Shown here piece by piece: positions 19,716 through 61,137 of a DNA stretch of 64,000 nucleotides. The stretch is from Ricordea florida. Taxonomy: Eukaryota; Cnidaria; Anthozoa; Corallimorpharia; Ricordeidae. Location: assembly GCA_949710005.1 (NCBI GenBank), contig OX453279.1, positions 10,338,378 to 10,402,377 on the forward strand. Reading direction: 5' to 3'. Below the pieces are notes generated by a model that saw nothing but the letters and a program-made list of their open reading frames with translations, did not search any database and was not told the DNA's origin. The position numbers and the translations under genes were made by a program. The first letter of the stretch is position 1. Each line of letters begins with the position of its first letter.

Positions 19716-19834
19716 CCTCTTAGATGACGGTCCTTCTGCCCATACAATCTCTTGTCTGGTTTTTTGCAAAAAATCTATAAGGCTGAGCTTCCTTGCAACC
19801 ATCTCTTGGTATTGTATCTTGTCTTCAAAAATGA
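19716..19834 (-). other. Exon-like segment of the satellite monomer, open in this copy
   Basis: Read on the minus strand, a TGTAG acceptor-like end is followed by an open stretch that includes EDKIQYQEMVARKLSLIDF and ends EGPSSKR at AGG/GTAAGTT, a consensus 5' splice site. The same segment exists in every monomer, but most copies have TAA (AGATAAGAG) or another change in the middle. The copies at about 19755 and 23645 read AGACAAGAG and stay open. The composition looks protein-like, but I recognise no family. It may be an exon of the gene from which the satellite was built. Confidence 0.3.
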
Positions 19835-20073
19835 CTACAATCACGACATAAAATGCGTGCGTCGAAGTGCGCATGCGTAGTAACTAAAAGTAGTTTCCTT
19901 AAATCACATGGAAATCCAATCGTTGCAATTAAAATTTTATTCGTCATCGAAAGCTGAGTCTATATCCTACTATAACGTATAGATAAAACATCCAAAATGA
20001 TTCCATAACTTACCCTCCTAGATGACGGTCCTTCTGCCCATACAATCTCTTATATGGTTTTTTGACAAAAAAT
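19775..20073. repeat. Half-length satellite monomer (299 bp), copy 1
   Basis: The unit starts normally at CTATAAGGCT. After ATAAAATGC it jumps, with an extra GTGC, to GTCGAAGTGCGCATGCG, so about 300 bp of the usual monomer are missing. The remainder and the next monomer start are normal. Confidence 0.85.
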
Positions 20074-23000: not shown

Positions 23001-23667
23001 GATAACTTACCCTCCTAGATGACGGTCCTTCTGCCCATACAATCTCTTATATGGTTTTTGACAAAAATCTATAAGGCTGAGCTTCCTTGCAACCATCTCT
23101 TGGTATTTGTTTCTTGTCTTCAAAAATGACTATAATCACGACATAAAATGCATTTTAAATTACATATTAAATGCTACAAGATGGTAAAAATTGCATGTTT
23201 ATCACTAATCTGTGTAATTAAGACTTATCAGAAGAACTTTGGTACTGTTTGAGCAGTATGCTATAGAGTTAGCTGCCTTAAGCAAATATCTTAACAGCCA
23301 AAATACAATACGATTGCGAATTACTATCAATTTGATTTCTTACCTAGATGTTCCCTTTCGTAATTAGTAAAAATCTGCAAAGTTTTAGAATTGCAAAGAT
23401 TCGGTAGGCCGACGTATGATAAAATATCTTTCATTTTAAGGCATATAGGCAATTGGTCGAAGTACGCATGCGTAGTAACTAAAAGTAGTTTCCTTAAATC
23501 ACATGGAAATCTAATTGCTGCAGTTAAACTTTTATTCGTCATCCAAAGCTGAGTCTATATCCTACTATAACATATAGATAAAACATCCAAAATTATTCGA
23601 TAACTTACCCTCTTAGATTACGGTCCTTCTGCCCATACAATCTCTTGTCTGGTTTTTTGCAAAAAAT

Positions 23668-23966
23668 CTATAAGGCTGAGCTTCCTTGCAACCATCTCTT
23701 GGTATTGTATCTTGTCTTCAAAAATGACTACAATCACGACATAAAATGCGTGCGTCGAAGTGCGCATGCGTAGTAACTAAAAGTAGTTTCCTTAAATCAC
23801 ATGGAAATCCAATCGTTGCAATTAAAATTTTATTCGTCATCGAAAGCTGAGTCTATATCCTACTATAACGTATAGATAAAACATCCAAAATGATTCCATA
23901 ACTTACCCTCCTAGATGACCGTCCTTCTGCCCATACAATCTCTTATATGGTTTTTTGACAAAAAAT
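23668..23966. repeat. Half-length satellite monomer (299 bp), copy 2
   Basis: It has the same internal deletion and the same GTGC filler as the copy at 19775, so one deletion event was later duplicated. The unit is 299 bp, again exactly half the normal monomer. Confidence 0.85.
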
Positions 23967-26900
23967 CTATAAGGCTGAGCTTCCTTGCAACCATCTCTTG
24001 ATATTTGTTTCTTGTCTTCAAAAATGACTATAATCACGACATAAAATGCATTTTAAATTTTATATTAAATGCTACAAGATGGTAAAAATTGCATGTTCAT
24101 CACTAATCTGTGTAATTAAGATTTATCAGATGAACTTTGGTACTGTCTGAGCAGTATGCTATAGAATTAGCTGCCTTAAGCAAATATCTTGACAGCCAAA
24201 ATACAATACGATTGCCAATTACTATCAATTTGATTTCTTACCTAGATATTGCCCTTTTGTAATTAGTAAGAATCCTCAAAGTTTTAGAATTGCAAAGATT
24301 CGGTAGACCGACGTATGATAGAATATCTTTCATTTTAAGGCATATAGGCAATTTGTTGAAGTGCGCATGCGTAGTAACTAAAGCTAGTTTCCTTAAGTCA
24401 CATGGAAATCTAATCGGTTCAATTAAAATTTTATTCGTCATCCAAAGCTGAGTCTATATCCTACCATAACATATAGATAAAACATTGAAAATGATTCGAT
24501 AACTTACCCTCTTAGATGACGGTCCTTGTGACCATACAATCTCTTATCTGGTTTTTTGCAAAAAATCTATAAGGCTGAGCTTGCTTGCAACAATCTCTTG
24601 GTATTGTCTCTTGTCTTCAAAAATGACTATAATCACGATATAAAATGCATTTTAAATTACATATTAAATGCTACAAGATGGTCAAAATTGCATGTTCATC
24701 ACTAATCTGTGTAATTAAGACTTATCAGATGAACTTTGATACTGTCTGAGCAGTATGCTATAGAATTAGCTGCCTTAAGGAAATATCTTAAAAGCAAAAA
24801 TGCAATACGATTGCGAATTACTATCAATTTGATTTGTTACCTAGATATTGCCCTTTCGTAATTAGTAAAAATCTGCAAAGTTTTAGAATTGCAAAGATTC
24901 GGTAGGCCGACGTATGATAGTATATCTTTCATTTTAAGGCATATAGGCAATTGGTCGAAGTGCGCATGCGTAGTAACTAAAACTAGTTTCCTTACATCAC
25001 ATGGAAATCTAATCGTTGCAATTAAAATTTTATTCCTCATCCAAAGCTGAGTCTATATCCTACTATAACATAGAGATAAAACATTCAAAATGATTCGATA
25101 ACTTACCCTCCTAGATAACGGTCCTTTTGCCAATAGAATCTCTTATCTGGTTTTTTCCAAAAAAACTATAAGGCTTAGCTTCCTTCCAACCATCTCTTGG
25201 TATTGTATCTTGTCTTCAAAAATGACTACAATCACGACATAAAATGCATTTTAAATTACATTTTACATGTTACAAGATGGTAAAAATGGCATGTTCATCA
25301 CTAATCTGTGTAATAAAGACTTATCAGAAGAACTTTGGTATTGTCTGAGCAGTATGCTATAGAATTAGCTGCCTTAAGCAAATATCTTGACAGCCAAAAT
25401 ACAATACGATTGCGAATTACTATCAATCTGATTTCTTACCTAGATGTTGCCCTTTTGTAATTAGTAAAAATCTGCAAAGTTTTAGAATTGCCAAGATTCG
25501 GTAGGCCGACGTATGATACAATATCTTTTATTTTAGGGCATATAGGCAATTGGTCGAAGTGCGCATGCGTAGTAACTAAAAGTAGTTTCCTTAAATCACA
25601 TGGAAATCCAATCGTTGCAATTAAAATTTTATTCGTCATCGAAAGCTGAGTCTATATCCTACTATAACGTATAGATAAAACATCCAAAATGATTCCATAA
25701 CTTACCCTCCTAGATGACGGTCCTTCTGCCCATACAATCTCTTATATGGTTTTTTGACAAAAAATCTATAAGGCTGAGCTTCCTTGCAACCATCTCTTGA
25801 TATTTGTTTCTTGTCTTCAAAAATGACTATAATCACGACATAAAATGCATTTTAAATTTTATATTAAATGCTACAAGATGGTAAAAATTGCATGTTCATC
25901 ACTAATCTGTGTAATTAAGATTTATCAGATGAACTTTGGTACTGTCTGAGCAGTATGCTATAGAATTAGCTGCCTTAAGCAAATATCTTGACAGCCAAAA
26001 TACAATACGATTGCCAATTACTATCAATTTGATTTCTTACCTAGATATTGCCCTTTTGTAATTAGTAAGAATCTGCAAAGTTTTAGAATTGCAAAGATTC
26101 GGTAGACCGACGTATGATAGAATATCTTTCATTTTAAGGCATATAGGCAATTTGTTAAAGTGCGCATGCGTAGTAACTAAAGCTAGTTTCCTTAAGTCAC
26201 ATGGAAATCTAATCGTTGCAATTAAAATTTTATTCGTCATCCAAAGCTGAGTCTATATCCTACCATAACATATAGATAAAACATTGAAAATGATTCGATA
26301 ACTTACCCTCTTAGATGACGGTCCTTGTGACCATACAATCTCTTATCTGGTTTTTTGCAAAAAATCTATAAGGCTGAGCTTGCTTGCAACAATCTCTTGG
26401 TATTGTCTCTTGTCTTCAAAAATGACTATAATCACGATATAAAATGCATTTTAAATTACATATTAAATGCTACAAGATGGTCAAAATTGCATGTTCATCA
26501 CTAATCTGTGTAATTAAGACTTATCAGATGAACTTTGGTACTGTCTGAGCAGTATGCTATAGAATTAGCTGCCTTAAGGAAATATCTTAACAGCAAAAAT
26601 GCAATACGATTGCGAATTACTATCAATTTGATTTGTTACCTAGATATTGCCCTTTCGTAATTAGTAAAAATCTGCAAGGTTTTAGAATTGCAAAGATTCG
26701 GTAGGCCAACGTATGATAGACTATCTTTTATTTTAAAGCATATAGGCAACTGGTCGAAGTGCGCATGCGTAGTAACTTAAAGTAGTTTCCTTAAATCACA
26801 TGGAAATCTAATCGTTGCAATTAAAATTTTGTTTGTCATCCAAACCTGAGTCTATATCCTAATATAACATATAGATAAAACATCCAAAATGATTCCATAA

Positions 26901-28919
26901 CTTACCCTTATAGATGACGGTCCTTCTGCCCATACAATCTTTTATATGGTTTCTTAACAAAAATTTATAAGGCTAAGCTTCCTTGCAACCATCTCTTGGC
27001 ATTATGTTTCTTGTCTTCAAAAATGACTATAATCACGACATAAAATGGATTTTAAATTACATATTAAATGCTACAAGATGGTAAAAATTGCATGTTCATC
27101 ACTAATCTGTGTAATAAAGACTTATCAGAAGAACTTTGGTATTGTCTGAGCAGTATGCTATAGAATTAGCTGCCTTAAGCAAATATCTTGACAGCCAACA
27201 TACAATACGATTGCGAATTACTATCAATCTGATTTCTTACCTAGATGTTGCCCTTTTGTAATTAGTAAAAATCTGCAAAGTTTTAGAATTGCCAAGATTC
27301 GGTAGGCCGACGTATGATACAATATCTTTTATTTTAGGGCATATAGGCAATTGGTCGAAGTGCGCATGCGTAGTAACTAAAAGTAGTTTCCTTAAATCAC
27401 ATGGAAATCCAATCGTTGCAATTAAAATTTTATTCGTCATCGAAAGCTGAGTCTATATCCTACTATAACGTATAGATAAAACATCCAAAATGATTCCATA
27501 ACTTACCCTCCTAGATGACGGTCCTTCTGCCCATACAATCTCTTATATGGTTTTTTTGACAAAAAATCTATAAGGCTGAGCTTCCTTGCAACCATATCTT
27601 GATATTTGTTTCTTGTCTTCAAAAATGACTATAATCACGACATAAAATGCATTTTAAATTTTATATTAAATGCTACAAGATGGTAAAAATTGCATGTTCA
27701 TCACTAATCTGTGTAATTAAGATTTATCAGATGAACTTTGGTACTGTCTGAGCAGTATGCTATAGAATTAGCTGCCTTAAGCAAATATCTTGACAGCCAA
27801 AATACAATACGATTGCCAATTACTATCAATTTGATTTCTTACCTAGATATTGCCCTTTTGTAATTAGTAAGAATCTGCAAAGTTTTAGAATTGCAAAGAT
27901 TCGGTAGACCGACGTATGATAGAATATCTTTCATTTTAAGGCATATAGGCAATTTGTTGAAGTGCGCATGCGTAGTAACTAAAGCTAGTTTCCTTAAGTC
28001 ACATGGAAATCTAATCGTTGCAATTAAAATTTTATTCGTCATCCAAAGCTGAGTCTATATCCTACCATAACATATAGATAAAACATTGAAAATGATTCGA
28101 TAACTTACCCTCTTAGATGACGGTCCTTGTGACCATACAATCTCTTATCTGGTTTTTTGCAAAAAATCTATAAGGCTGAGCTTGCTTGCAACAATCTCTT
28201 GGTATTGTCTCTTGTCTTCAAAAATGACTATAATCACGATATAAAATGCATTTTAAATTACATATTAAATGCTACAAGATGGTCAAAATTGCATGTTCAT
28301 CACTAATCTGTGTAATTAAGACTTATCAGATGAACTTTGGTACTGTCTGAGCAGTATGCTATAGAATTAGCTGCCTTAAGGAAATATCTTAGCAGCAAAA
28401 ATGCAATACGATTGCGAATTACTATCAATTTGATTTGTTACCTAGATATTGCCCTTTCGTAATTAGTAAAAATCTGCAAAGTTTTAGAATTGCAAAGATT
28501 CGGTAGGCCGACGTATGATAGTATATCTTTCATTTTAAGGCATATAGGCAATTGGTCGAACTGCGCATGCGTAGTAACTAAAAGTAGTTTCCTTAAATCA
28601 CATGGAAATCTAATCGTTGCAATTAAAATTTTTTTTTTCATCCAAAGCTGAGTCTATATCCTACTATAACATATAGATAAAACATCCAAAATGATTCCAT
28701 AACTTACCCTCATAGATGACGGTCCTTCTCCCCATACAATCTTTTATATGGTTTCTTAACAAAAATTTATAAGGCTGAGCTTCCTTGCAACCATCTCTTG
28801 GTATTATGTTTCTTGTCTTCAAAAATGACTATAATCACGACATAAAATGCATTTTAAATTACATATTAAATGCTACAAGATGGTAAAAATTGCATGTTTA
28901 TCACTAATCTGTGTAATTA
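23967..28919. repeat. Higher-order repeat, 3-monomer period (~1800 bp)
   Basis: Variant frames at 24238, 26037 and 27839, and at 25436 and 27237, recur at 1799-1802 bp. They share private changes such as GGTAGACCGACG, AATTTGTT(G/A)AAG and the TTTTATATTAAATG substitution. The third copy is cut by the transposon at 28919. Confidence 0.8.
28916..28919. repeat. Left target-site duplication ATTA of the DNA transposon
   Basis: ATTA precedes the element and is repeated at 37873-37876. Intact monomers have one copy of this sequence, in CTGTGTAATTAAGACTT. The base before it differs between sides (A on the left, G on the right), so the duplication is 4 bp. Confidence 0.85.
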
Positions 28920-28955
28920 CACGCCGGGGATTTTGTTGCGTGATTTCGGCCACAT
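28920..28955 (+). repeat. Left terminal inverted repeat
   Basis: It matches the reverse complement of 37837-37872 at 26 of 36 positions. Fourteen of the first 15 match (CACGCCGGGGATTTT), and a second conserved block is CGGCCA at 28947-28952. These are the likely transposase binding and cleavage ends. Confidence 0.85.
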
Positions 28956-29245
28956 TTTTGTCCGCATATTTTTCCGCCGCCATGTTGGCCGCGCATAGGC
29001 CTGAGTTGGAGCCTGGAAATTAGAATAATTAAGGCCTCGCTGCGGCTCCTGGGTACCCGCCAGCGCGGCAAAAATAAAATCTTCGAACGCAGCAACAGTA
29101 GAGCTTTATTTTGGTACCAAACTTGAGGTAATTCGTTTAATTTTTCAATTTTTACGTCTCTCCAAAGAAGCAGTTGTTATGGCGGCGTGGAATTGAACGG
29201 ATTTTGGAGACGATCGTAGAAAGAAGTAAACGCAAAAACGGCAAC
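28956..29245 (+). promoter_or_regulatory. Left subterminal region / presumed promoter and 5' leader of the transposase gene
   Basis: This is 290 bp between the inverted repeat and the first plausible start codon. It is clearly more GC-rich than the satellite, with GCCGCCATGTTGG near 28976, a short inverted pair GCCGCGC / GCGCGGC, and ATGGCGGCGTGG at about 29179. That ATG opens a 5-codon frame only. I see no clear TATA box. A promoter role is inferred from position. Confidence 0.35.
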
Positions 29246-31092
29246 ATGTTAGAAAGCATACAAAATGAATACGAAAACCTGAATCCTTCGGTAAGAACTT
29301 CTTCGATTCCGATTTTTGATATTTCGCTTTAATTGAATAAAATTTCTACTTTTGTGCGGCCTACTGTCATCCGTTTGTCTGGTGCTTTGACTTGAAAAGG
29401 CTAAATGATTCTTAAAATATCAAAGAACGTGTTACCAAAATGATGCACATACTACTTGGAGATGGCTCCACGGAAAGGACAGAAACATCGCTTCCCTGTG
29501 AACACCTTTATGGCCTTAAAGCGGAACCAAGAAGTTCAACTCGCTTGTGCCCTTGCCAAGGACAAGCAATATGTCGCAAAAGCAAAGAAATTAAAGCGAC
29601 TGGAGGCAAAGGTAATATCAAGTATGAAATTCTCTTTACTGTTTAGTAGTAGATATTAGAACAAGGTCATGAGAAGTTCAGTTTTAATCACTTTTGATTT
29701 AAATTGCATTTTATTTCCATTTAGACTATCCCCAATAAATTTATATAAATTTTTGCAACACATTGACCTCCTGTTTTGATTATTCAGTGATTACAAAAGT
29801 AAAAATATTTCACTTTCAGGCAAGAGTGGTCAATGACAAAGAGAATGAAGGGATCCAAGAAAAGGCCAGTGTTATGTTTTGTAGCATTTCTAACTACAAA
29901 CTAACATTCTATTGCATTTCAGTAATTTAGTATCTCTATTGCTACATACATATACAAACCCAGAACACTATAAGAAATGAAAATATTGTCCTGAAATATT
30001 TATATGCATTTATGACCAAGTAAAGTTTGTGAATATGCAAGGAAAAATAATCTGTATTATAACTTGTCTGTGCGTTGTCATTCTATGTTATAGGCTTCAA
30101 TTAGTAAGAGGCTCATCACAAGTAGGCAACTTTCTCCTACGGCAATAAATAAACAGGGGCAGTTCTCTGGAAGTAACCGCAGTGGTCGGAGAAGACAACT
30201 GGAGACAATCCAGATGGCTAGGATGGTGCATGGAGGAACACTGCAAAACATGACACCTGCATATGAGGGTCTAGCAGCAGTTTTAAATAGTAAAGCTTCT
30301 GTTACAGAGATAACTAATATATTAAAAAAATGTACAAAGATTAGAGATAAAGCTATTCCAAGAATTGCCAAAGTAGAAATAGTGAATTTTGAAAAGAGCC
30401 ATGAAAATTTTGTAAGAAGTCTTAATACTCTTTATAGAGGTGGTATTGTAAGTAAGCAAAAGTACAATGCTATAAGGTCTGCATTGTCAATGTGCTCTGA
30501 TGCAACTGGTCTTCACAGAAAACATATTACATTTATGAAAAACATCCCAGTGCCAAAACTGTTTACTTATAAGAACTTATTACAGAGAATTAATCAAATT
30601 GACATGGGAGAATTGTGTGATGTGAGGGAAACACTTTGCCTTGGGCTTGATGAGGAACATCAAGTTGATGGAAAATATAGGGGCCTCCTCAAGCTGTTAA
30701 AGAGTATGGCCTTGTTTTATCTTAATGTTAATAAGCAAAGAAAAGATAAACTTGATTGGTTTGGGAAACAAGAGGGTTCATTTAGAGTAGCTATTGGTGG
30801 GGATGGGGCTCCCTTTGGGAAGGATGACCAGGCCTTAGCTTGGCTGGTCAGTTTTCTGAATTGTGGAAAGCGTGTATGTAGCTCTGGAGAAAATTTTCTC
30901 TTATTTGGAGCAAACTGCTCTGAAGACTGTGTACCTGTTCGCAGATATGTAGCAATGCTGAAAGAGCAAATGACTGAAATAGAGGGTAATATATATCCTA
31001 TTCAAGTTGATGGTAAGGAGACACTTTTGTCCTTTACATTTGAGCTACTGCCAAATTATATGAAATATTTGGCTTTCTTAGGAGGAGAACTT
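29246..31092 (+). pseudogene. Putative DDE-type transposase, 5' part (four predicted exons), interrupted by a retrotransposon
   Basis: The main exon runs from the TTATAG acceptor (exon start 30094) to 31092. Upstream, three short segments fit as exons with GT-AG borders, all phase 0: 29246-29290 (donor GTAAGA), 29462-29611 (donor GTAATA) and 29820-29870 (weak donor GTTATG, acceptor TTTCAG). Together they give about 415 residues. The short exons are basic (MAPRKGQKHRF, AKAKKLKRLEAK). The main exon has AIGGDGAPFGKDDQALAWLV with an Asp at 30802-30804 that could be the first catalytic acidic residue, then ENFLLFGANCSED, then FELLPNYMKYLAFLGGEL, where the reading stops making sense because a retrotransposon begins. 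I think I have seen this motif set in uncharacterised proteins of cnidarian genomes, but cannot name the family. The transposase call rests mainly on the inverted repeats and duplication around it. The weak third donor is the least certain part. Confidence 0.65.
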
Positions 31093-31093
31093 A
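31088..31093. repeat. Left target-site duplication AACTTA of the retrotransposon
   Basis: AACTTA lies in the transposase codons for Glu-Leu and is repeated at 34895-34900. Keeping one copy restores the transposase frame. Confidence 0.75.
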
Positions 31094-31133
31094 CCGCTGA
31101 CCGTCATGACCATCATCATCACCGCTGACCATC
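31094..31133 (+). promoter_or_regulatory. Short 5' leader of the retrotransposon with a 28-bp-spaced repeat
   Basis: CCGCTGACCGTCATG at 31094 and CCGCTGACCATCATG at 31122 are near-copies. The second runs into the start codon in CCATCATGGCG, a reasonable Kozak context. An upstream ATG at 31106 opens a 14-codon overlapping frame. Confidence 0.4.
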
Positions 31134-34100
31134 ATGGCGGTTGGTCGTAGGTTTTCCTGCTCTCCCAGGATTAATGTGTTTTTTATTTGTTGCGTAATTT
31201 CTAATGGTTTTCTAAATGAAAAGACATGTGTAAGAAATTCCAATATGCATCAGTATTCTGCTGGAGGCATCAAAGATCTCGAGAAGATTCAAAACCTTCG
31301 AGTTGTATCGTTACTACGTTTCCGCCATCTTGGTCTTGATTTTGGGACACGATTGAAAGGATACTTTACTGCGGGAGTGACTCGATATCCAAACTCTATT
31401 TCTACCTTTAATGTTTCAAGACTGGTACAGTGTGGAGATATTGAAATAAACCCCGGACCGGATCAATTGATTTCCACAATCCGCAAGAAACCCACATGGA
31501 AATTCCCTTGTGATGTGTGTACGAAACCTGTTCGCTCAAATCAGAAGGGCATTCTTTGTGACGGCTGCAACAAGTGGTTCCACTTCAAATGTGTTTCTAT
31601 GGACCTTAAGACCTATATTGATTTAGGTTCTTCCGATGAGCAGTGGCTTTGTGACAAAAACTGTGGCTGGCCTTTCAACTTCACTGATTCATTTTTCGAG
31701 TCGTCCCCTTTGTCAGAATCTAATCTGAATTTAAGCTCTTCTAGTACAGAAGTTTCGGTTGAATGTTCGTCTCGTTCCTCTAGTGGTTTCTCTAAGTGTT
31801 TATTGTTAAACACAAGGAGTGTTCGTAATAAGATTTTTGACTTGAATGCGCTATTGCTAATTGACTCCTTTGACATAGTCGCTTTGACTGAAACCTGGCT
31901 GGACAGTAATTTTGATGATCGTGAACTTCACCTTGAAGACTATAATATCTTTCGTCGAGATAGAAGCAATCAGTATGGTGGTGGTGTGTTGCTAGCAATA
32001 AAATCAGACCTACACTGTGTTCGCAGATATGATCTGGAAGTTAACACTGAGATGTTGGCTTGTGAATTAAGGATAAGTAACACTAGATGTCTGTTATTTG
32101 CAGTCTTCTATAGACCTCCTGGCATTGGAGAGGGATTCTTGGAAGAATTCAGGAAATTTCTCAATAATGCTTCCAAAACAGGAATAGCTGACCTAGTAAT
32201 CACTGGTGACTTTAACTTCCCTTATGTTGATTGGTCTACTTGCTCACCAACTACAGCTGGTTTCCTGACTGAAACTTTTTGTGAAATTCTTGATGACTAC
32301 TTTCTTACACAAACAAACTTCAATGTAACTCGTCCTAATGCCTCAGCATGTATTACGTCACATGGTAATATCTTGGATCTTGTCTTGACAAATAATGAAT
32401 CATTGATTGAAGGAACTACTACGTACCCAAATGGCTTTGACTCAGATCATTTTCCAGTCTGTTTTGCTATCAAAAAGAAGTTTAACAGGCTGAAAAACAG
32501 TCCAAGATCAGTATTTTGCTACCATAAAGCTGATTTTGATGGTCTTAGACACACCCTCTCTCATATTTTATGGGATTCTTTTATATCTTGTGATGACATT
32601 GACTCTAGTACAGCTAATTTTCAAGATCTCGTACTGGCAGCAGTCAATCAGCATGTCCCAACGGCAAGGCTCAGACGCAATTCTAGACCACCATGGATAG
32701 ACAATGATGTTTTGAAAATGGTAAAGAAAAAGAAAGTCCTGTGGAAACGGTTGAAGTCCAATGCTTCTGCTGATCTGACATCTAAATTCAAGCTACTTAG
32801 GAAGGAAACTAAGAGCCTTATTTCCTCCAAGTATCGTCAGTATTTAAAGTCTTTGTCAGAAAAATTGAAGTCAAATCCTAAAAAGTTTTGGTCCTTTCAT
32901 TCACTCAAGACTAAGACTAAAAGATTGCCTGAGGTTATCACATACAGAAGCAAAGCCAAGTCTGCTAAAAACCCCCTTGAGAAAGCTTCCTTGTTCAATG
33001 ACTTCTTTGGATCTGTGTTCTCCGCAAAAATATCAGACCTGAGCACCGTGGTCCCTCATGGTGATGTGGTCAATCCAGACCTTTTAATGGAAGTTTCAAC
33101 ATCCAATAATAGGGTCAAAGATATCATCAGTAAGTTGGATATTACCAAGGCTACTGGAATAGACGGTATATCTGCAAGGATTTTGAAAGAGTGTGCGGAG
33201 GAGCTATCATATCCTTTGACTCTGTTATTTAATCTGTCTTTTAGAAGTGGGAAGGTTCCTTCCTCATGGAAAAAGGCCCATGTCACTCCTGTACATAAAG
33301 CAGATGCCAAGGATGTCGTAGAGAATTATCGACCTATTTCCCTACTGTCCATACCAGGTAAATGCCAAGAGAAGATAGTACATAATGCCATATATTCTCA
33401 TGTGGCTCCCTATTTAACTGATTGGCAACATGGGTTTGTAAGAGGTCGCTCCTGTGCCACCCAGCTGGTACTTACACACCATCATTGGACCAAGGCCTTG
33501 GATGATGGATTACAGGTGGATGTAGTTTTCTTGGATTTCACTAAGGCCTTTGACAGAGTGTCACATGATATACTTTTGCAGAAACTGTGTAACTTTGGTA
33601 TCTCTGGTAGTCTGCTGAACTGGTGTAAGGATTACTTAACTAACAGAGAGCAAAGGGTTGTTATTGAGGGATTAAGTTCTTCCTGGACTGTCATCCCATC
33701 TGGTGTACCACAGGGTTCCTTGTTGGGCCCCCTGTTCTTTGTGATATTCATCAGTGATTTACCTGATGTAGTTATGGCTGGTAACACAATTGCCTTGTAT
33801 GCTGATGACTGTAAAACATCAAGAGTGATAAATTGTCCGTCCGACCACCAAGTTTTTCAATCTGATCTGGATAACCTGTACTCATGGAGTCAACAAAATC
33901 TTATGGACTTCAATGTGAAAAAATGTAAATTGATGCGTATCACCAAGAAGAAAATGCCTTTTCACGCTGACCTTCAGCTCAACAATAACACCTTGGAGGA
34001 AATATCGGAATTTCGTGATCTTGGTCTAGTCACTACTAGTAAGCTGTCTTGGAATGCCCATGTCGATAAATTATCAAGCAAGGCAAACAAAATTCTAGGC

Positions 34101-34622
34101 CTCATCAAAAGAACATGTAGGGGTCTGAATGACGTAGCCACCTTAAGAACCTTGTACTGTGCCTTGGTAAGATCCCAATTAGAGTACTGTACTGTTGTCT
34201 GGTCGCCTTATACAGCTAGGTGTGTTGACAAGTTGGAAAAAATTCAACGAAGAGCTACTAAGTTTATACTGAAGACTGATGACGAGTATGATACTAGAAG
34301 AGAAAGACTGAACTTGTTATCCTTGAAGGACAGACGCTTTTTGTTTGATGTTTTGTTTTTTTATAAAATTTTAAATGGGTATATCAACATAGATATCTCT
34401 TCGTATGTTGAATTTTATTCAGACTCTGAAAGGTACTCTCTAAGGGGAAGGGATGAACTTACCTTGAAGAAGAACTATGCAAGGACTAATACTTTTAAGT
34501 TTAGTTTTTTTAATAGAATAGTTGATATGTGGAATGCATTACCACCATCTGTGCGTCTCGCCTCAAGTATCTCTAGCTTTAAAAAGGGTGTAAGGGATTT
34601 CTTATTGTCTAGAATTAAGTAA
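31134..34622 (+). CDS. Retrotransposon polyprotein: 2A motif, PHD finger, APE endonuclease, reverse transcriptase
   Basis: The protein of 1162 residues should nick target DNA and copy its own RNA there. Residues 1-101 include a hydrophobic run (about 14-26, VFFICCV) that resembles a weak signal sequence. DIEINPGP at 102-109 is a 2A ribosome-skipping motif, with the break expected between Gly108 and Pro109. Residues 126-177 form a PHD-type zinc finger (Cys126, 129, 142, 145, His150, Cys153, 173, 177). Residues about 221-446 are an APE/EEP endonuclease with Asn226, Glu253 in LTETWLD, YRPP, GDFN (358-361), LDLVLTN and SDHFPV with His439. Residues about 660-960 are the reverse transcriptase, with FLDFTKAFD (Asp801), SGVPQGSLLGPLFF and YADD (889-892). 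The C-terminal part has EYCTVVWSP and WNALPPSVRLASSISSFK, usual in CR1/L2 proteins. All key residues are present and there is no stop or frameshift. No separate ORF1 is present. Confidence 0.93.
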   Translation: MAVGRRFSCSPRINVFFICCVISNGFLNEKTCVRNSNMHQYSAGGIKDLEKIQNLRVVSLLRFRHLGLDFGTRLKGYFTAGVTRYPNSISTFNVSRLVQCGDIEINPGPDQLISTIRKKPTWKFPCDVCTKPVRSNQKGILCDGCNKWFHFKCVSMDLKTYIDLGSSDEQWLCDKNCGWPFNFTDSFFESSPLSESNLNLSSSSTEVSVECSSRSSSGFSKCLLLNTRSVRNKIFDLNALLLIDSFDIVALTETWLDSNFDDRELHLEDYNIFRRDRSNQYGGGVLLAIKSDLHCVRRYDLEVNTEMLACELRISNTRCLLFAVFYRPPGIGEGFLEEFRKFLNNASKTGIADLVITGDFNFPYVDWSTCSPTTAGFLTETFCEILDDYFLTQTNFNVTRPNASACITSHGNILDLVLTNNESLIEGTTTYPNGFDSDHFPVCFAIKKKFNRLKNSPRSVFCYHKADFDGLRHTLSHILWDSFISCDDIDSSTANFQDLVLAAVNQHVPTARLRRNSRPPWIDNDVLKMVKKKKVLWKRLKSNASADLTSKFKLLRKETKSLISSKYRQYLKSLSEKLKSNPKKFWSFHSLKTKTKRLPEVITYRSKAKSAKNPLEKASLFNDFFGSVFSAKISDLSTVVPHGDVVNPDLLMEVSTSNNRVKDIISKLDITKATGIDGISARILKECAEELSYPLTLLFNLSFRSGKVPSSWKKAHVTPVHKADAKDVVENYRPISLLSIPGKCQEKIVHNAIYSHVAPYLTDWQHGFVRGRSCATQLVLTHHHWTKALDDGLQVDVVFLDFTKAFDRVSHDILLQKLCNFGISGSLLNWCKDYLTNREQRVVIEGLSSSWTVIPSGVPQGSLLGPLFFVIFISDLPDVVMAGNTIALYADDCKTSRVINCPSDHQVFQSDLDNLYSWSQQNLMDFNVKKCKLMRITKKKMPFHADLQLNNNTLEEISEFRDLGLVTTSKLSWNAHVDKLSSKANKILGLIKRTCRGLNDVATLRTLYCALVRSQLEYCTVVWSPYTARCVDKLEKIQRRATKFILKTDDEYDTRRERLNLLSLKDRRFLFDVLFFYKILNGYINIDISSYVEFYSDSERYSLRGRDELTLKKNYARTNTFKFSFFNRIVDMWNALPPSVRLASSISSFKKGVRDFLLSRIK
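31437..31460 (+). other. 2A-type ribosome-skipping motif (DIEINPGP)
   Basis: The codons read DIEINPGP, which fits the known core D(V/I)ExNPG followed by P. In this class translation releases the upstream peptide after Gly and continues from Pro. Here that would separate the first 108 residues from the PHD-endonuclease-RT protein. Similar motifs are known in non-LTR elements of sea urchins and other marine animals. Confidence 0.8.
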
Positions 34623-34894
34623 CGAATCTAATATTTCATTAGTTATTTTATTTATTTCTTTATGTTTGTAAATGGTTCTTAGGAGGGGTTTCTCAGGTGG
34701 TCCGCCTTGTATGGGGTCGTCGACTCTTTTGTGGACTATCCTAATGGCTCTGTTTTACTTTCTTTTATCTCTTATGTCACTCTTTCTCTCCTTTCCTCTT
34801 ATCTCCTCTTGCTTCCTCTTAATTCTTATAACTTATTTTTAGAGTACCATCTTTATTTTATTGTAGTGATTTTGCCATTAAATTGTAATAAATA
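34623..34894 (+). other. 3' UTR and 3' terminus of the retrotransposon
   Basis: This holds 272 bp after the stop codon. A pyrimidine-rich tract spans about 34755-34835, and the element ends in overlapping AATAAA units at 34887-34896, next to the AACTTA duplication. A 62-codon frame here (34707-34895) is not convincing as a gene. Confidence 0.6.
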
Positions 34895-34900
34895 AACTTA
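34895..34900. repeat. Right target-site duplication AACTTA of the retrotransposon
   Basis: This second copy is followed directly by the continuing transposase codons (the final A is the first base of AGT, Ser). Confidence 0.75.
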
Positions 34901-36081
34901 GTATATCAGCATCCTATTTTTCTCCCTTTGCAGATGTAATGAAAGCTGACATCAGCAATCTTCAAGGAAAGTTTGGCTCAGAGTCTCACAACAAGTGGCA
35001 TCCCTGGAAATATAATGATAGGGTAAGAGTAGCTGCTGCTGTTGAGAAGAAGAAATTACAGCTGAGTAAAACAGCATTGAAAGAGGCTACAAAAAGAGAT
35101 AAACTTACTTCCTTTATCTCACCGCAAAAATCTCGGCAAGAGTTTCCTCCTCTTGTTGGTAAGTTTATTGACAGAGCCAAAGTAGAGCCCCTGCATTTAA
35201 AGAACAATGCATGGCAACAGTGGAATGCATCTGTTTTGAAGTATGCGCTGTCCCGCAGTAACCTTGGAAACTGTCAGTCAATTTTTGATGTTTCTCAAAA
35301 CAGCTGCTTTGGTAAGTATTACCACTGCATACGCTTCATTGTTAAAGCAACACGCTTGGCAAAAAAGATCAGGAAGTGGTTTGCAGATGGTCGCCTCAAG
35401 AACAAGGTTTTGGAATATCGATTTACAGGTAAAGAATCTCGTTTTTTTTGCCACAACTTTATGTCCATTGTTCATAGTATCAAAATGGAAGCTGACGAGC
35501 GGTGTCACACATTCCTACTCCATATATATGCATATGCAGGTGTTAACTTAAGAGATTCAGTCTCTCTTTTCAGCAGGGTTTCACTTTCAAGCGAGCAGAT
35601 TCAGAGTCTCAGTGAAGTTTGTTCTAACTTTTTCCGAGTTACTGCACTCTTTCTACCTTGTACCCCAACAACCTGGACAATAGGTCATGTGGTGCCTGTT
35701 TATGCACGACAGATCCATGAATCACTGGGCATGGGTTTAGGGATAAACTCTATGGAGGGAAGGGAGGCAAAGCACATTGCTTTGGCCAAGTTCACCCACA
35801 ACACCCAGTTTAGTAACAGATGGGTACAGGTTTTTAAGCATGAGTATATGACTTTGCTCTGGTTGCAGGAGAATGGGTGTGATGAAACCGTTTACAAGGA
35901 GACTGCAGGAGTTTACATACCCAAGAGATGTTCTACTGCCCAGTTTTGCCACTGTGGGCTACCCAAAAATGCTGAAGATGGGAAATGCAACTTCTGTTCT
36001 GAGCAGTTGCGGCAGATATTAATTGGATGTGTGATTCAAGTAAAAATCACAAATGAAGCTAGAGCACTGGCAGTTAATTAA
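34900..36081 (+). pseudogene. Putative DDE-type transposase, 3' part, resumes after the retrotransposon
   Basis: After the right copy of AACTTA the frame reads SISASYFSPFADVMKADI and stays open for 393 codons to TAA at 36079-36081, in the frame left at 31092. The first ATG is at 34939, but that is not a real start. Visible blocks, counted from that Met, are KWHPWKYNDRVRVA (19-32), WTIGHVVPVYARQ (246-258), GLGINSMEGREAKHIAL (266-282), whose Glu 273 or 276 is a candidate last catalytic acid, and NRWVQVFKHEYMTLLWL (293-309). A C-terminal CHCG / CNFC cysteine cluster (337, 339, 350, 353) probably binds zinc. Apart from the insertion no frameshift or stop is visible, so the gene was intact when hit. 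An AATAAA at 36623-36628 could be its polyadenylation signal. Confidence 0.65.
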
Positions 36082-37156
36082 CTCAAGCCTAAGTGAACAA
36101 AAGATAGATATTAGAATTACGAAAGAACAGATAAATTTATTAAGTGATCCATTAACAAAGTGTATGTATTGCAAGCAGAGCTTATACTATGATCAGGCTC
36201 TCTTTCTAATCGGCTGTGGAAATGTCGGGTAATGTCAATCAACAGGTTATTTTCAGAAGTTCCTTAACCTGGACTATCTCGCTATACAAACTACTGATGC
36301 TTCCAAGGTTTCAATCATTTACCACTGCCATAAGAAGAACATGCAAAAGTGACCTTGTGCATTGATGTGACACATGGGTATGGGATAAAAACAAAATATA
36401 AATGCAGTCATATGTTCTTCTGATGACTATCCCTAATTGGACTGTGAAAGAGAACTGACCATAGTCTATAAGAGGCTATTTGTTATACAAAATAATAATC
36501 ACAAGTTTGTTTATTACATATTCCTGTACATATAAATGCTCTATTGTCATTGGTGAGACACAAGCAAAAACATGATCAAGGTTACCAAATTCAGAGAGAT
36601 ATAGCATTTACACATTCTATATAATAAAGAAACTAATTAAAAATTATGACTAGCAGATGCACAAAAATATATAATTAATTTAGTTCAAATTAGTAGCTTT
36701 TGACTTATTTCATTGCTAACTTTTAGAATAGACTTCAAAATTTAATATATGACTTTTTTGATTGACAAAGAAATATTTTGAAATTTCTATACAAATTTTC
36801 TTGCAAATTATCATATTACATTATATTAATATAGTATATTATTATGAGGTCAATCAAATTTTATCACAGAATATTATCAATAAAATATCAAATATCTCTC
36901 TTGACAGCAAAGGTTGAGCAGGTTATTTGTCATGGAAGTTATAGTGATAGATGAATGGTAACAGGGTTTTGTGTCATCCACTTCAGTCTAATCATACCAA
37001 TCATGACATCGTTTGAGCACCTTTTGTTTAATCATGAGCAAAACATCACAACTTACTGTCAGTAGAAGAATTTAACAGGAATTGTACAGAGATTTAAACA
37101 GCAAGATGTTTTTAATAAATGGATCTGGTTTTAAAAACTAACACTACCTTTATATT
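36082..37156. other. AT-rich spacer between the two convergent transposon genes
   Basis: About 1.1 kb lies between the stop codons of the two converging genes. It is very AT-rich around 36600-36900 and has an AATAAA at 36623-36628 for the plus-strand gene. TTTATT at about 36504 reads AATAAA for the minus-strand gene. I see no coding frame, RNA gene or repeat here. Confidence 0.6.
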
Positions 37157-37810
37157 TTACACATGCTGAGGCCAGCGATGCTCATTCCAAAATCCATAAT
37201 AAAAATCAAATGTTACTACTTCCTTCTTAAAAGAATATTTCACCCCAAACTGTTTAGTTTCATTGATGATACCTTCAACTCGCTTCCCTCCTTTCAATTT
37301 CCTTTTCAGAAACGTATCTTGCGTCAGAATTTCGTCCGTCAAAATTGAAAACACTCTTCTGACTCGATTGTAGTTTGTAAAAGCAAACACACAGTTTTTC
37401 TTGTTTTTTACAGTGACTAATCCGTAATTTGTTTTCGAAACAATCGCTTCCACTATATCGAAAAGTTCGCGGGCTAACCGCTCTTCAACAATGACCTGCC
37501 ACGGGTGCTTAACAGAACATCGTGGCAAAATTCGTCGCTGAAATTGTTGTATCCAGCACTTTGCCTGCCTTTGTAGCATGGGATAAGAATCCCCGACCTT
37601 ATGTTTGAAACCACTTCTCTCGAAATGGCGAAGTGATATTGGCCGCAACACAGATTTTACATCTTCCAAGGCATTTCGTACCTTCTCTCTATTAGCTCCA
37701 CCTTCTATGAGCTCTACTTCAGCGGAGGATAAAGTGTCTTCAACTGAATTGAAAAAAATTCCACACGCGTCCGCCATTTTGTTTAGTCTTAGGTGCCTGG
37801 TTGGTGACAA
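37157..37810 (-). CDS. Unrecognised 217-residue protein encoded by the DNA transposon
   Basis: This is an open frame on the minus strand that starts 62 bp inside the right end of the transposon and converges on the transposase gene. The first Met is at 37810. The Met at 37777 (MADACGIFF) sits in AAAATGGCGG, a better initiation context, and would give 206 residues. The protein is rich in Lys and Arg, has no obvious signal peptide or membrane segment, and shows no zinc finger or catalytic motif I can name. Segments worth searching are ANREKVRNALEDVKSVLR, HPWQVIVEERLARELFDIVE and FYYGFWNEHRWPQHV. The position suggests an accessory transposition protein or a regulator, as some two-gene DNA transposons carry, but that is inference. 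It could also be a captured host gene fragment. Confidence 0.6.
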   Translation of the reverse strand: MSPTRHLRLNKMADACGIFFNSVEDTLSSAEVELIEGGANREKVRNALEDVKSVLRPISLRHFERSGFKHKVGDSYPMLQRQAKCWIQQFQRRILPRCSVKHPWQVIVEERLARELFDIVEAIVSKTNYGLVTVKNKKNCVFAFTNYNRVRRVFSILTDEILTQDTFLKRKLKGGKRVEGIINETKQFGVKYSFKKEVVTFDFYYGFWNEHRWPQHV

Positions 37811-37836
37811 CCGCTGACGAGTTACCTGCGCCGGTC
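37778..37836 (-). promoter_or_regulatory. Right subterminal region / presumed leader of the minus-strand gene
   Basis: Only 95 bp separate the preferred start codon (37777) from the transposon end, so the promoter must lie within or overlap the inverted repeat, or outside the element. AAAATGGCGG at the start codon resembles a YY1-type element. No TATA box is evident. Confidence 0.3.
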
Positions 37837-37872
37837 ATCTGGCCGCTTTTGCCCCAAAAAATCCCCAGCGTG
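37837..37872 (-). repeat. Right terminal inverted repeat
   Basis: Read inward on the minus strand it begins CACGCTGGGGATTTT and includes CGGCCA, mirroring the left end. The satellite resumes immediately outside it after ATTA. Confidence 0.85.
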
Positions 37873-37876
37873 ATTA
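37873..37876. repeat. Right target-site duplication ATTA of the DNA transposon
   Basis: This second copy of the target sequence is followed by AGACTTATCAG, which continues the interrupted monomer without loss. Confidence 0.85.
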
Positions 37877-38459
37877 AGACTTATCAGATGAACTTTGGTA
37901 CTGTCTGAGCAGTATGCTATAGAATTAGCTGCCTTAAGCAAATATCTTGACAGCCAAAATACAATACGATTGCGAATTACTATCAATCTGATTTCTTACC
38001 TAGATGTTGCCCTTTCGTAATTAGTAAAAATCTGCAAAGTTTTAGAATTGCAAAGATTCGGTAGGCCGACGTATGATAGTATATCTTTCATTTTAAGGCA
38101 TATAGGCAATTGGTCGAAGTGCGCATGCGTAGTAACTAAAACTAGTTTCCTTAAGTCACATGGAAATCTAATCGCTGCAATTAAAATTTTACTCGTCATC
38201 CAAAGCTGAGTCTATATCCTACTATAACATATAGATAAAACATTGAAAATGATTCGATAACTTACCCTCTTAGATGACGGTCCTTCTGCCCATACAATCT
38301 TTTATATGGTTTCTTACCAAAACTTTTTTAAGGCTTAGCTTCCTTGCAACCATCTCTTGGCATTATGTTTCTTGTCTTCAAAAATGACTATAATCACGAC
38401 ATAAAATGCATTTTAAATTGCATATTAAATGCTACAAGATGGTAAAAATTGCATGTTTA

Positions 38460-41400
38460 TCACTAATCTGTGTAATTAAGACTTATCAGATGAACTTTGG
38501 TACTGTCTGAGCAGTATGCTATAGAATTAGCTGCCTTAAGCAAATATCTTGACAGCCAAAATACAATACGATTGCGAATTACTATCAATTTGATTTCTTA
38601 CCTAGATGTTGCCCTTTCGTAATTAGTAAAAATCTGCAAAGTTTCAGAATTGCAAAGATTCGGTAGGCCGACGTATGATAGAATATCTTTCATTTTAAGG
38701 CATATAGGCAATTGGTCGAAGTGCGCATGCGTAGTAACTAAAACTAGTTTCCTTACATCACATGGAAATCTAATCGTTGCAATTAAAATTTTATTTGTCA
38801 TCCAAAGCTGAGTCTATATCCTACTATAACATAGAGATAAAACATTGAAAATGATTCGATAACTTACCCTCCTAGATAACGGTCCTTTTGCCAATAGAAT
38901 CTCTTATCTGGTTTTTTCCAAAAAATCTATAAGGCTGAGCTTCCTTCCAACCATCTCTTGGTATTGTATCTTGTCTTCAAAAATGACTACAATCACGACA
39001 TAAAATGCATTTTAAATTACATATTAAATGTTACAAGATGGTAAAAATAGCATGTTCATCACTAATCTGTGTAATAAAGACTTATCAGAAGAACTTTGGT
39101 ATTGTCTGAGCAGTATGCTATAGAATTAGCTGCCTTAAGCAAATATCTTGAAAGCCAAAATACAATACGATTGCGAATAACTATCAATCTGATTTCTTAC
39201 CTAGATGTTGGCCTTTTGTAATTAGTAAAAATCTGCAAAGTTTTAGAATTGCAAAGATTCGGTAGGCCAACGTATGATAGACTATCTTTTATTTTAAGGC
39301 ATATAGGCAACTGGTCGAAGTGCGCATGCGTAGTAACTAAAAGTAGTTTCCTTAAGTCACATGGAAATCTAATCGTTGCAATTAAAATTTTGCTTGTCAT
39401 CCAAAGCTGAGTCTATATCCTACTATAACATATAGATAAAACATCAAAAATGATTCCATAACTTACCCTCCTAGATGACGGTCCTTCTGCCCATACAATC
39501 TCTTATATGGTTTTTTGACAAAAATCTATAAGGCTGAGCTTCCTTGCAACCATCTCTTGGTATTTGTTTCTTGTCTTGAAAAATGACTATAATCACGACA
39601 TAAAATGCATTTTAAATTACATATTAAATGCTACAAGATGGTAAAAATTGCATGTTCATCACTAATCTGTGTAATTAAGACTTCTCAGAAGAACTTTGGT
39701 ACTGTCTGAGCAGTATGCTATAGAGTTAGCTGCCTTAAGCAAATAACTTGACAGCCAAAATACAATACGATTGCGAATGACTATTAATTTGATTTCTTAC
39801 CTAGATGTTGCCCTTTCGTAATTAGTAAAAATCTGCAAAGTTTTAGAATTGCAAATATTCGGTAGGCCGACGTATGATAGAATATCTTTCATTTTAAGGC
39901 ATATAGTCAATTGGTCGAAGTGCGCATGCGTAGTAACTAAAACTAGTTTCCTTAAATCACATGGAAATCTAATCGCTGCAGTTAAAATTTTATTCGTCAT
40001 CAAAAGCTGAGTCTATATCCTACTATAACATATAGATAAAACATTTTAAATGATTCGATAACTTACCCTCGTAGATGACGGTCCTTCTGCCCATACAATC
40101 TCTTATATGGTTTTTTAACAAAATCTATAAGGCTGAGCTTCCTTGCAACCATCTCTTGGTATTTGTTTCTTGTCTTCAAAAATAACTATAATCACGATAT
40201 AAAATGCATTTTAAATTACACATTAAATGCTACAAGATGGTAAAAATTGCATGTTCATCACTAATCTGTGTAATTAAGACTTATTAGATGAACTTTGGTA
40301 CTGTCTGAGCAGTATGCTATAGAGTTAGCTGCCTTAAGCAAATATCTTAACAGCAAAAATACAATACGATTGCGAATTACTATCAATTTGATTTCTTACC
40401 TAGATGTTGCCCTTTCGTAATTAGTAAAAATCTGCAAAGTTTTAGAATTGCAAAGATTCGGTGGGCCGACGTCTGATAGAATATCTTTAATTTTAACGCA
40501 TATAGGCAATTGGTCGAAGTGCGCATGCGTAGTAACTAAAAGTAGTTTCCTTAAATCACATGGAAATCTAATTGCTGCAGTTAAAATTTTATTCGTCATT
40601 CAAAGCTGAGTCTATATCCTACTATAACATATAGATAAAACATTCAAAATGATGCGATAATTTACCCCCTTAGATGACGGTCCTTCTTCCTATACAATCT
40701 CTTATCTGGTTTTTTCCAAAATATCTATAAGGCTGAGCTTGCTTGCAACAACCTCTTGGTATTCTCTCTTGTCTTCAAAAATGACTATAATCACGATATA
40801 AAATGCATTTTAAATTACATATTAAATGCTACAAGATGGTCAAAATTGCATGTTCATCACTAATCTGTGTAATTAAGACTTATCAGATGAACTTTGGTAC
40901 TATCTGAGCAGTATGCTATAGAATTAGCTGCCTTAAGCAAATATCTTAACAGCCAAAATACAATACGATTGCGAATTACTATCAATTTGATTTGTTACCT
41001 AGATATTGCTCTTTTGTAATTAGTAAAAATCTGCAAAGTTTTAGAATTGCAAAGATTCGGTAGGCCAACGTATGATAGGCTATCTTTTATTTTAAGGCAT
41101 ATAGGCAACTGGTCGAAGTGCGCATGCGTAGTAACTAAAAGTAGTTTCCTTAAATCACATGGAAATCTAATCGTTGCAATTAAAATTTTGTTTCTCATCC
41201 AAAGCTGAGTCTATATCCTACTATAACATATAGATAAAACATCCAAAATGATTCCATAACTTACCCTCATAGATGACGGTCCTTCTCCCCATACAATCTT
41301 TTATATGGTTTCTTAACAAAAATTTATAAGGCTGAGCTTCCTTGCAACCATCTCTTGGTATTATGTTTCTTGTCTTCAAAAATGACTATAATCACGACAT

Positions 41401-44400
41401 AAAATGCATTTTAAATTACATATTAAATGCTACAAGATGGTAAAAATTGCATGTTTATCACTAATCTGTGTAATTAAGACTTATCAGATGAACTTTGGTA
41501 CTGTCTGAGCAGTATGCTATAAAATTAGCTGCCTTAAACAAATATCTTGACAGCCAAAATACAATACGATTGCGAATTACTATCAATTTGATTTCTTACC
41601 TAGATGTTGCCCTTTCGTAATTAGTAAAAATCTGCAAAGTTTTAGAATTGCAAAGATTCGGTAGGCCGACGTATGATAGAATATCTTTCATTTTAAGGCA
41701 TATAGGCAATTGGTCGAAGTGCGCATGCGTAGTAACTAAAACTAGTTTCCTTACATCACATGGAAATCTAATCGTTGCAATTAAAATTTTATTTGTCATC
41801 CAAAGCTGAGTCTATATCCTACTATAACATAGAGATAAAACATTGAAAATGATTCGATAACTTACCCTCCTAGATAACGGTCCTTTTGCCAATAGAATCT
41901 CTTATCTGGTTTTTTCCAAAAAATCTATAAGGCTGAGCTTCCTTCCAACCATCTCTTGGTATTGTATCTTGTCTTCAAAAATGACTACAATCACGACATA
42001 AAATGCATTTTAAATTACATATTAAATGTTACAAGATGGTAAAAATAGCATGTTCATCACTAATCTGTGTAATAAAGACTTATCAGAAGAACTTTGGTAT
42101 TGTCTGAGCAGTATGCTATAGAATTAGCTGCCTTAAGCAAATATCTTGAAAGCCAAAATACAATACGATTGCGAATAACTATCAATCTGATTTCTTACCT
42201 AGATGTTGGCCTTTTGTAATTAGTAAAAATCTGCAAAGTTTTAGAATTGCAAAGATTCGGTAGGCCAACGTATGATAGACTATCTTTTATTTTAAGGCAT
42301 ATAGGCAACTGGTCGAAGTGCGCATGCGTAGTAACTAAAAGTAGTTTCCTTAAGTCACATGGAAATCTAATCGTTGCAATTAAAATTTTGCTTGTCATCC
42401 AAAGCTGAGTCTATATCCTACTATAACATATAGATAAAACATCAAAAATGATTCCATAACTTACCCTCCTAGATGACGGTCCTTCTGCCCATACAATCTC
42501 TTATATGGTTTTTTGACAAAAATCTATAAGGCTGAGCTTCCTTGCAACCATCTCTTGGTATTTGTTTCTTGTCTTGAAAAATGACTATAATCACGACATA
42601 AAATGCATTTTAAATTACATATTAAATGCTACAAGATGGTAAAAATTGCATGTTCATCACTAATCTGTGTAATTAAGACTTCTCAGAAGAACTTTGGTAC
42701 TGTCTGAGCAGTATGCTATAGAGTTAGCTGCCTTAAGCAAATAACTTGACAGCCAAAATACAATACGATTGCGAATGACTATTAATTTGATTTCTTACCT
42801 AGATGTTGCCCTTTCGTAATTAGTAAAAATCTGCAAAGTTTTAGAATTGCAAATATTCGGTAGGCCGACGTATGATAGAATATCTTTCATTTTAAGGCAT
42901 ATAGTCAATTGGTCGAAGTGCGCATGCGTAGTAACTAAAACTAGTTTCCTTAAATCACATGGAAATCTAATCGCTGCAGTTAAAATTTTATTCGTCATCA
43001 AAAGCTGAGTCTATATCCTACTATAACATATAGATAAAACATTTTAAATGATTCGATAACTTACCCTCGTAGATGACGGTCCTTCTGCCCATACAATCTC
43101 TTATATGGTTTTTTAACAAAATCTATAAGGCTGAGCTTCCTTGCAACCATCTCTTGGTATTTGTTTCTTGTCTTCAAAAATAACTATAATCACGATATAA
43201 AATGCATTTTAAATTACACATTAAATGCTACAAGATGGTAAAAATTGCATGTTCATCACTAATCTGTGTAATTAAGACTTATTAGATGAACTTTGGTACT
43301 GTCTGAGCAGTATGCTATAGAGTTAGCTGCCTTAAGCAAATATCTTAACAGCAAAAATACAATACGATTGCGAATTACTATCAATTTGATTTCTTACCTA
43401 GATGTTGCCCTTTCGTAATTAGTAAAAATCTGCAAAGTTTTAGAATTGCAAAGATTCGGTGGGCCGACGTCTGATAGAATATCTTTAATTTTAACGCATA
43501 TAGGCAATTGGTCGAAGTGCGCATGCGTAGTAACTAAAAGTAGTTTCCTTAAATCACATGGAAATCTAATTGCTGCAGTTAAAATTTTATTCGTCATTCA
43601 AAGCTGAGTCTATATCCTACTATAACATATAGATAAAACATTCAAAATGATGCGATAATTTACCCCCTTAGATGACGGTCCTTCTTCCTATACAATCTCT
43701 TATCTGGTTTTTTCCAAAATATCTATAAGGCTGAGCTTGCTTGCAACAACCTCTTGGTATTCTCTCTTGTCTTCAAAAATGACTATAATCACGATATAAA
43801 ATGCATTTTAAATTACATATTAAATGCTACAAGATGGTCAAAATTGCATGTTCATCACTAATCTGTGTAATTAAGACTTATCAGATGAACTTTGGTACTA
43901 TCTGAGCAGTATGCTATAGAATTAGCTGCCTTAAGCAAATATCTTAACAGCCAAAATACAATACGATTGCGAATTACTATCAATTTGATTTGTTACCTAG
44001 ATATTGCTCTTTTGTAATTAGTAAAAATCTGCAAAGTTTTAGAATTGCAAAGATTCGGTAGGCCAACGTATGATAGGCTATCTTTTATTTTAAGGCATAT
44101 AGGCAACTGGTCGAAGTGCGCATGCGTAGTAACTAAAAGTAGTTTCCTTAAATCACATGGAAATCTAATCGTTGCAATTAAAATTTTGTTTCTCATCCAA
44201 AGCTGAGTCTATATCCTACTATAACATATAGATAAAACATCCAAAATGATTCCATAACTTACCCTCATAGATGACGGTCCTTCTCCCCATACAATCTTTT
44301 ATATGGTTTCTTAACAAAAATTTATAAGGCTGAGCTTCCTTGCAACCATCTCTTGGTATTATGTTTCTTGTCTTCAAAAATGACTATAATCACGACATAA

Positions 44401-44870
44401 AATGCATTTTAAATTACATATTAAATGCTACAAGATGGTCAAAATTGCATGTTCATCACTAATCTGTGTAATTAAGACTTATCAGATGAACTTTGGTACT
44501 GTCTGAGCAGTATGCTATAAAATTAGCTGCCTTAAACAAATATCTTGACAGCCAAAATACAATACGATTGCGAATTACTATCAATTTGATTTCTTACCTA
44601 GATGTTGCCCTTTCGTAATTAGTAAAAATCTGCAAAGTTTTAGAATTGCAAAGATTCGGTAGGCCGACGTATGATAGAATATCTTTCATTTTAAGGCATA
44701 TAGGCAATTGGTCGAAGTGCGCATGCGTAGTAACTAAAACTAGTTTCCTTACATCACATGGAAATCTAATCGTTGCAATTAAAATTTTATTTGTCATCCA
44801 AAGCTGAGTCTATATCCTACTATAACATAGAGATAAAACATTAAAAATGATTCGATAACTTACCCTCCTA
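38460..44870. repeat. Higher-order repeat, 5-monomer period (2998 bp), nearly identical copies
   Basis: Five consecutive monomer types recur at a constant 2998-bp offset (38598/41596/44594, 39197/42195, 39797/42795, 40396/43394, 40995/43993). The copies are almost identical, down to single private changes such as GAATGACTATTAATTTG at 39776 and 42774. This points to recent amplification of the block. Confidence 0.85.
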
Positions 44871-53800: not shown

Positions 53801-53806
53801 TGAGTC

Positions 53807-61130: not shown

Positions 61131-61137
61131 TTGCAAC

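Follow-up and report, generated by a model that had tools for sequence, protein, structure and literature searches.

The locus considered here raises the question of how a retrotransposon came to lie within a DNA transposon that itself lies within a satellite array, in which order these repeats came together, and whether the transposase was still functional when it was split. The stretch analysed is a 64,000-nucleotide segment of the Ricordea florida genome (C8:10338378-10402377), hereafter the window, and the genome searched comprised 537.8 Mb in 48 contigs. Outside the nested block, the window consisted of tandem 599-bp monomers, all in the same orientation; one of them is interrupted by a two-gene DNA transposon, the outer element, whose transposase gene is in turn interrupted by a long interspersed nuclear element (LINE). 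Very probably, satellite, transposon and LINE were stacked in three events, the transposon copy having probably been impaired before the LINE arrived. The three-layer nesting had been proposed in an initial annotation made from the window alone and was borne out, with the scars and the empty sites both being readable.

The limits of the LINE were set by two copies of AACTTA, a target-site duplication inside the transposase frame (Table 1), as the initial annotation had reported, although the join coordinate it gave (31092) was off by one base. Removing the LINE and one AACTTA left a continuous frame, also as proposed, which reads GGEL followed by SISASYFSPFADV. The closest uninterrupted copy of the transposon (L039, on C12) was about 98% identical on both sides of the join, had a single AACTTA and no LINE, and its left piece ended at base 2765 while the right one started at base 2766. 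In the protein alignment, six relatives spanning the join continued from GEL into SISASYF or an equivalent, with L039 reading GGEL followed by SISASYF. Moreover, the join was uninterrupted in the siblings L040, L043 and L048 and in copies of about 70% identity (L041, L042, L044 and L049). Excluding the window, 61 matches to the left piece reached the join, 41 of which paired with a right piece no more than 3 bp off the expected distance. Another 12 paired within 20 bp once later-starting right pieces were allowed, one overlapped, one had about 2.6 kb extra (C5:13330477) and six had no partner among the listed matches. The LINE-free copies suggested as a check were thus found, and they continued across the join instead of diverging there. 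Furthermore, the LINE was not shared at this site by other copies: among 29 further LINE copies sampled, not one was flanked by the transposon, and no LINE lay inside the transposon at any of 19 sampled loci (12 distinct places).

The outer scar was equally readable. ATTA stands on both sides of the outer element, in agreement with the initial annotation, and excising the element with one ATTA yielded a 601-bp unit, to which 89 other alignments of more than 560 bp showed 92.2-99.0% identity, so that an ordinary monomer was restored, as had been expected. The monomer at 41157 was the top match of the left half of this unit (99.4%) and the third best of the right half (98.6%); since both halves match this monomer, the two flanks most probably belonged to one monomer. 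Ninety other monomers of the window had a readable insertion site, which was ATTA in 74, ATAA in 12 and AGTA in 4, and it was interrupted in none of these 90. A 28-bp word representing the empty site occurred 628 times genome-wide on a single strand (none for the same word written backwards as a control) and, among the places listed, one was on C6 and the rest on C8. The inverted ends of the outer element (CACGC...GCGTG) matched at 72% over 36 nt, with one mismatch in the first 15 nt. Dating through satellite variants was dropped as uninformative, the host monomer carrying one unique variant where the mean was 1.17.

The initial annotation had further held that the relative ages were fixed by the nesting. 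This stands for the LINE, which must postdate the transposon copy. Nesting does not, however, imply that the satellite already harboured the transposon at the arrival of the LINE; it orders two events, not three. By private substitutions, the LINE is also younger than the split of the window copy from L039: the transposon carried 33 private substitutions over 4,679 positions and the LINE 3 over 3,773 (p=4e-6), while a stricter polarisation gave 18 over 2,998 for the transposon (p=2e-4). For the LINE, private changes over 33000-34894 were called from 30 alignments of 29 copies, of which 22 alignments at ≥98.2% were used and 8 dropped, and the 5′ half was compared across five copies. If rates are equal, about 11% of the private changes of the transposon (2-33%, with Poisson limits set on the 3 changes of the LINE) postdate the LINE.

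That the transposase was intact when it was disrupted, as had also been claimed, is probably wrong. Two private changes of the window copy fall on strongly conserved residues (counted by distinct place, n=19, after removal of duplicate loci). The LPNDMK motif was readable in 16 relatives, 15 of which had D and one H, compared with Y in the window (LPNYMK), and the second H of GHVVPVH was present in all 15 readable relatives, compared with Y in the window (GHVVPVY). From the order of the motifs, the D changed to Y may be the second of the catalytic Asp residues, and the H changed to Y may be a His that binds metal. Assuming equal rates, the chance that both damaging changes postdate the LINE was about 1% (0.1-11%), and at least one of them likely predates it. 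Given these two changes and the substitution clock, which puts most private changes before the LINE, the transposase was probably not intact at its disruption; the LINE probably landed in a transposon copy that had been impaired before, and it was therefore probably not what put an end to a functioning transposase.

It is very unlikely that the transposase remained fully functional until the LINE inserted, the two conserved residues and the low chance of both having changed later standing against it, even though both coding pieces are open without a stop and the 15 private coding changes of the transposase (8 replacements and 7 silent) do not appear to show the excess of replacements expected from long neglect. 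As the locus shows, an open reading frame says little about whether a transposase works. The order of the two insertions leads to another alternative, namely that the LINE entered the transposon elsewhere, after which a related transposase acting in trans carried the composite into the satellite. Such mobilisation would be possible because both inverted ends are present and transposase relatives occur at ≥61 other places of the genome, some with long open frames. Nevertheless, it is unlikely, as no second composite appeared among the 29 LINE copies and 12 transposon places sampled, and the private load of the LINE, about 11% (2-33%) of that of the transposon copy, leaves a short interval for a composite to move; with a flat prior, the same clock gives about 11% for a transposition into the satellite after the arrival of the LINE. 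A wrongly joined nested block must be considered too, since satellite arrays are hard to assemble and the locus is known here from the assembly. This is highly improbable, because the duplications are base-exact at both scars, the empty sites match, L039 is about 98% identical to both transposon pieces and the halves of the host monomer match one paralogue.

Some observations weigh against the proposed succession of satellite, transposon and LINE with an already impaired transposase. The relative at C5:13330477 carries its extra sequence near the join, where none of the listed matches to the last 395 bases of the LINE lies. In addition, the longest words shared by the flanks of seven other full-length LINE copies with comparable flanks were 4-7 bp, no longer than those between flanks of different LINE copies (mean 5.0, range 3-8), so the duplication habit of the LINE is read from the window copy alone; AACTTA itself is on firmer ground, as it abuts both LINE ends exactly and is single in L039. 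For the outer element, L039 had no matching 4-bp flanks (TCAT and ATTA), and two relatives showed duplications of 3 bp (CAA in L041 and GCT in L047), so that the 4-bp duplication is not uniform in the family. Finally, what the two changed residues would do in catalysis is deduced from their order relative to GGDGAP and SMEGREAKH, and the clock takes the neutral rates of the LINE and the transposon to be equal.

In the favoured succession of three events, the 599-bp satellite array, which is observed, would have expanded on contig C8. The transposon would then have entered one monomer by a DDE-type cut-and-paste reaction, duplicating ATTA; this duplication and the empty sites are observed. Lastly, a recently active LINE would have entered the transposase gene at AACTTA, with target-primed reverse transcription as the presumed route, in which the reverse transcriptase perhaps re-copied the 5′ end of the RNA; the observed products are the duplicated AACTTA, the AATA tail and a filler at the 5′ junction.

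Table 1. Features of the nested block and of the surrounding array, in window coordinates
Feature	Position	Strand	Basis or remark
Satellite array, left arm, 599-bp monomers	1..28919	+	one orientation
Host monomer, left part, ending in target-site ATTA	28600..28919	+	
ATTA target-site duplication, left copy	28916..28919	.	adjoins CACGCCGGGGATTTT
Outer two-gene DNA transposon	28920..37872	+	8,953 bp including LINE and one AACTTA
Left terminal inverted repeat, beginning CACGCCGGGGATTTT	28920..28955	+	
Possible transposase 5′ exons	29246-29290, 29462-29611, 29820-29864 (29246..29864)	+	splice sites placed by eye
Transposase part 1, frame open as far as the LINE; GGDGAPFGK, LPNYMK	30094..31093	+	
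AACTTA target-site duplication, left copy	31088..31093	.	
LINE (non-LTR) retrotransposon, near full length	31094..34894	+	
27-bp filler at LINE 5′ junction, like imperfect repeats of the LINE's own 5′ end	31094..31120	+	
LINE open frame: PHD finger, APE endonuclease, reverse transcriptase	31110..34622	+	Pfam
2A-like motif GDIEINPGP near N-terminus of LINE frame	31434-31460	+	D[V/I]ExNPGP pattern
AACTTA target-site duplication, right copy	34895..34900	.	
Transposase part 2: EPLHLKNN, GHVVPVY, SMEGREAKH, C-terminal Cys motifs	34900..36081	+	
Convergent second gene, relatives in other elements	37157..37834	-	
Right terminal inverted repeat	37837..37872	-	
ATTA target-site duplication, right copy	37873..37876	.	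adjoins inverted counterpart of CACGCCGGGGATTTT
Satellite array, right arm; closest empty paralogue of host monomer at 41157	37877..64000	+	

The LINE frame matched PF03372 (6.1e-14) and PF00078 (2.6e-30) in the same frame, and no direct self-match indicating long terminal repeats was found inside 31094-34894. Its last 395 bases had ≥40 other match rows in the genome, ≥20 of them at 99-100%. The 3′ tails of the copies were AATA or A-rich, the window copy having a short AATA tail. Of 20 copies, 8 had the 5′ end where it was predicted; the remaining 12 are either truncated or displaced beyond the 201 bases retrieved. Other full-length copies start at ACCGCTGACCATCATGG (position 31121 of the window) or a few bases inside it, and thus 31094-31120 are extra bases at the 5′ junction; the LINE start ACCGCTGACCATCATGGCGGTTGG occurred at six places of the genome, the window included, and the first 24 bases of the filler only once. 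Re-copying of the 5′ end of the RNA during integration would explain this filler. Separately, AATA or AAATA directly preceded the 5′ start in four of the eight full-length copies (L054, L057, L061 and L069, which are the 5′ ends of L013, L016, L020 and L028).

Regarding the genes of the outer element, the two transposase pieces had 112 and 122 match rows in the genome, in places several rows per copy. Open relatives of the second gene in the same convergent position were found in 5 of 12 fetched loci (L039, L041, L046, L047 and L050), with E-values of 2e-138 to 3e-7 against the window protein in a comparison of six proteins in which that protein lacked 15 of its codons. The DNA match to this gene persisted in L040 and L044, but no frame of 150 codons was open there, and no second-gene frame of that length was recognised in the other five loci. 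In particular, L047 had inverted repeats at both borders, GCT on each side and both genes inside. The terminal sequences were CACGCC...GCGTG in the window copy, L039 and L041, and CACGCC...GGCGTG in L047. An 818-codon frame in L050 (C1:9272022-9274181) reads SMQGRGAKH, compared with SMEGREAKH or TMEGREAKH in most others, and this transposase relative is possibly inactive or repurposed. PDB searches, run from the right piece and again from the family alignment, returned nothing taken as a relative; the top matches of the family alignment were three designed knot proteins, aligned over 35 residues (E 5e-4 to 0.01) and apparently hit by chance. Outside this genome, where the search used the right piece and covered close relatives only, no viral contig matched the pattern, and seven stretches of genome contigs matched it, none of which was confirmed.

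The array itself varied along the window. A block of five monomers is tandemly repeated at 38760-44755, four of the monomers being 100% identical and the fifth 99.67%, and different higher-order patterns, such as a period of three, appear to the left of the insertion. Moreover, two half-length units of 298 bp (19608-19905 and 23501-23798) suggest the loss of about half a monomer.

When compared with known systems, the inner LINE shares an endonuclease and reverse transcriptase frame and a 2A-like, putatively ribosome-skipping motif with other non-LTR retrotransposons. Such elements with the D[V/I]ExNPGP motif are described from sea urchin and others in PMC4981915. The outer element, judged by its conserved D, D and E residues, may work like a DDE cut-and-paste transposon. 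For the CACTA-Mirage-Chapaev (Chapaev/CMC) group, the terminal sequences, duplication length and motifs used as criteria were those given in PMC4079192. The outer element shares the CAC...GTG ends, the target duplication of 3-4 bp (ATTA in the window, CAA in L041, GCT in L047, none visible in L039) and the LH motif, with [ED]PLHLKNN in the window and the six relatives aligned there. An H(4)H-like GHxxPxH, presumably equivalent, lies 18 residues before the conserved E; where this motif was found, the second H was present in 15 of 15 relatives and the first in 14 of 15, the window having Y at the second. The DGxPFG motif around the first Asp also resembles the DG..PF motif of CACTA elements. However, the C(2)C motif after the second Asp is missing in this family, which has YFSPF or YFSSF at the expected place of the alignment, and the convergent second gene sets the element apart; among the titles and abstract openings returned by a literature search, none described such a gene in Chapaev-type elements. 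An hhalign comparison with four CACTA-type proteins of the same genome gave probabilities <1%, a non-match that is weak evidence because both profiles were shallow (Neff of about 2). Membership in Chapaev/CMC was thus not assigned, the suggestive ends, duplication and motifs notwithstanding, and the family was left open, as C(2)C is missing and the profiles gave no support. The LINE may belong to a CR1/L2-like clade.

The two-gene makeup is shared with PIF/Harbinger elements, which encode two proteins according to PMC2836001. Neither the transposase nor the second gene of the outer element matched Pfam above the cut-off, which for the second gene is a difference from PIF/Harbinger. The ends and motifs of PIF/Harbinger presumably differ as well. 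Elsewhere in the genome, RAG1-family matches were found within two 969-codon open frames (C15:3041933-3043807 and C5:18269945-18271819), possibly RAG-like transposons. Tentatively, and with considerable doubt, the outer element could represent an undescribed DDE lineage with two convergent genes, common in this genome and with distant CMC/RAG-type kin, in which the transposase would have the order D-D-LH-H(4)H-E without C(2)C and the second protein about 210 amino acids. A two-gene transposon without a Pfam model yet with ≥61 related places is the part most worth the attention of specialists. It has long been known that mobile elements occur within satellite arrays and that insertions nest in one another, and nested repeats of this kind are ordinary biology, well preserved. 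Compared with other transposons nested in satellite DNA, here both the outer empty site and a LINE-free sibling can be read in one genome, which makes a clean stratified repeat, with the outer empty sites in the same array and the inner one in a sibling of 98% identity.

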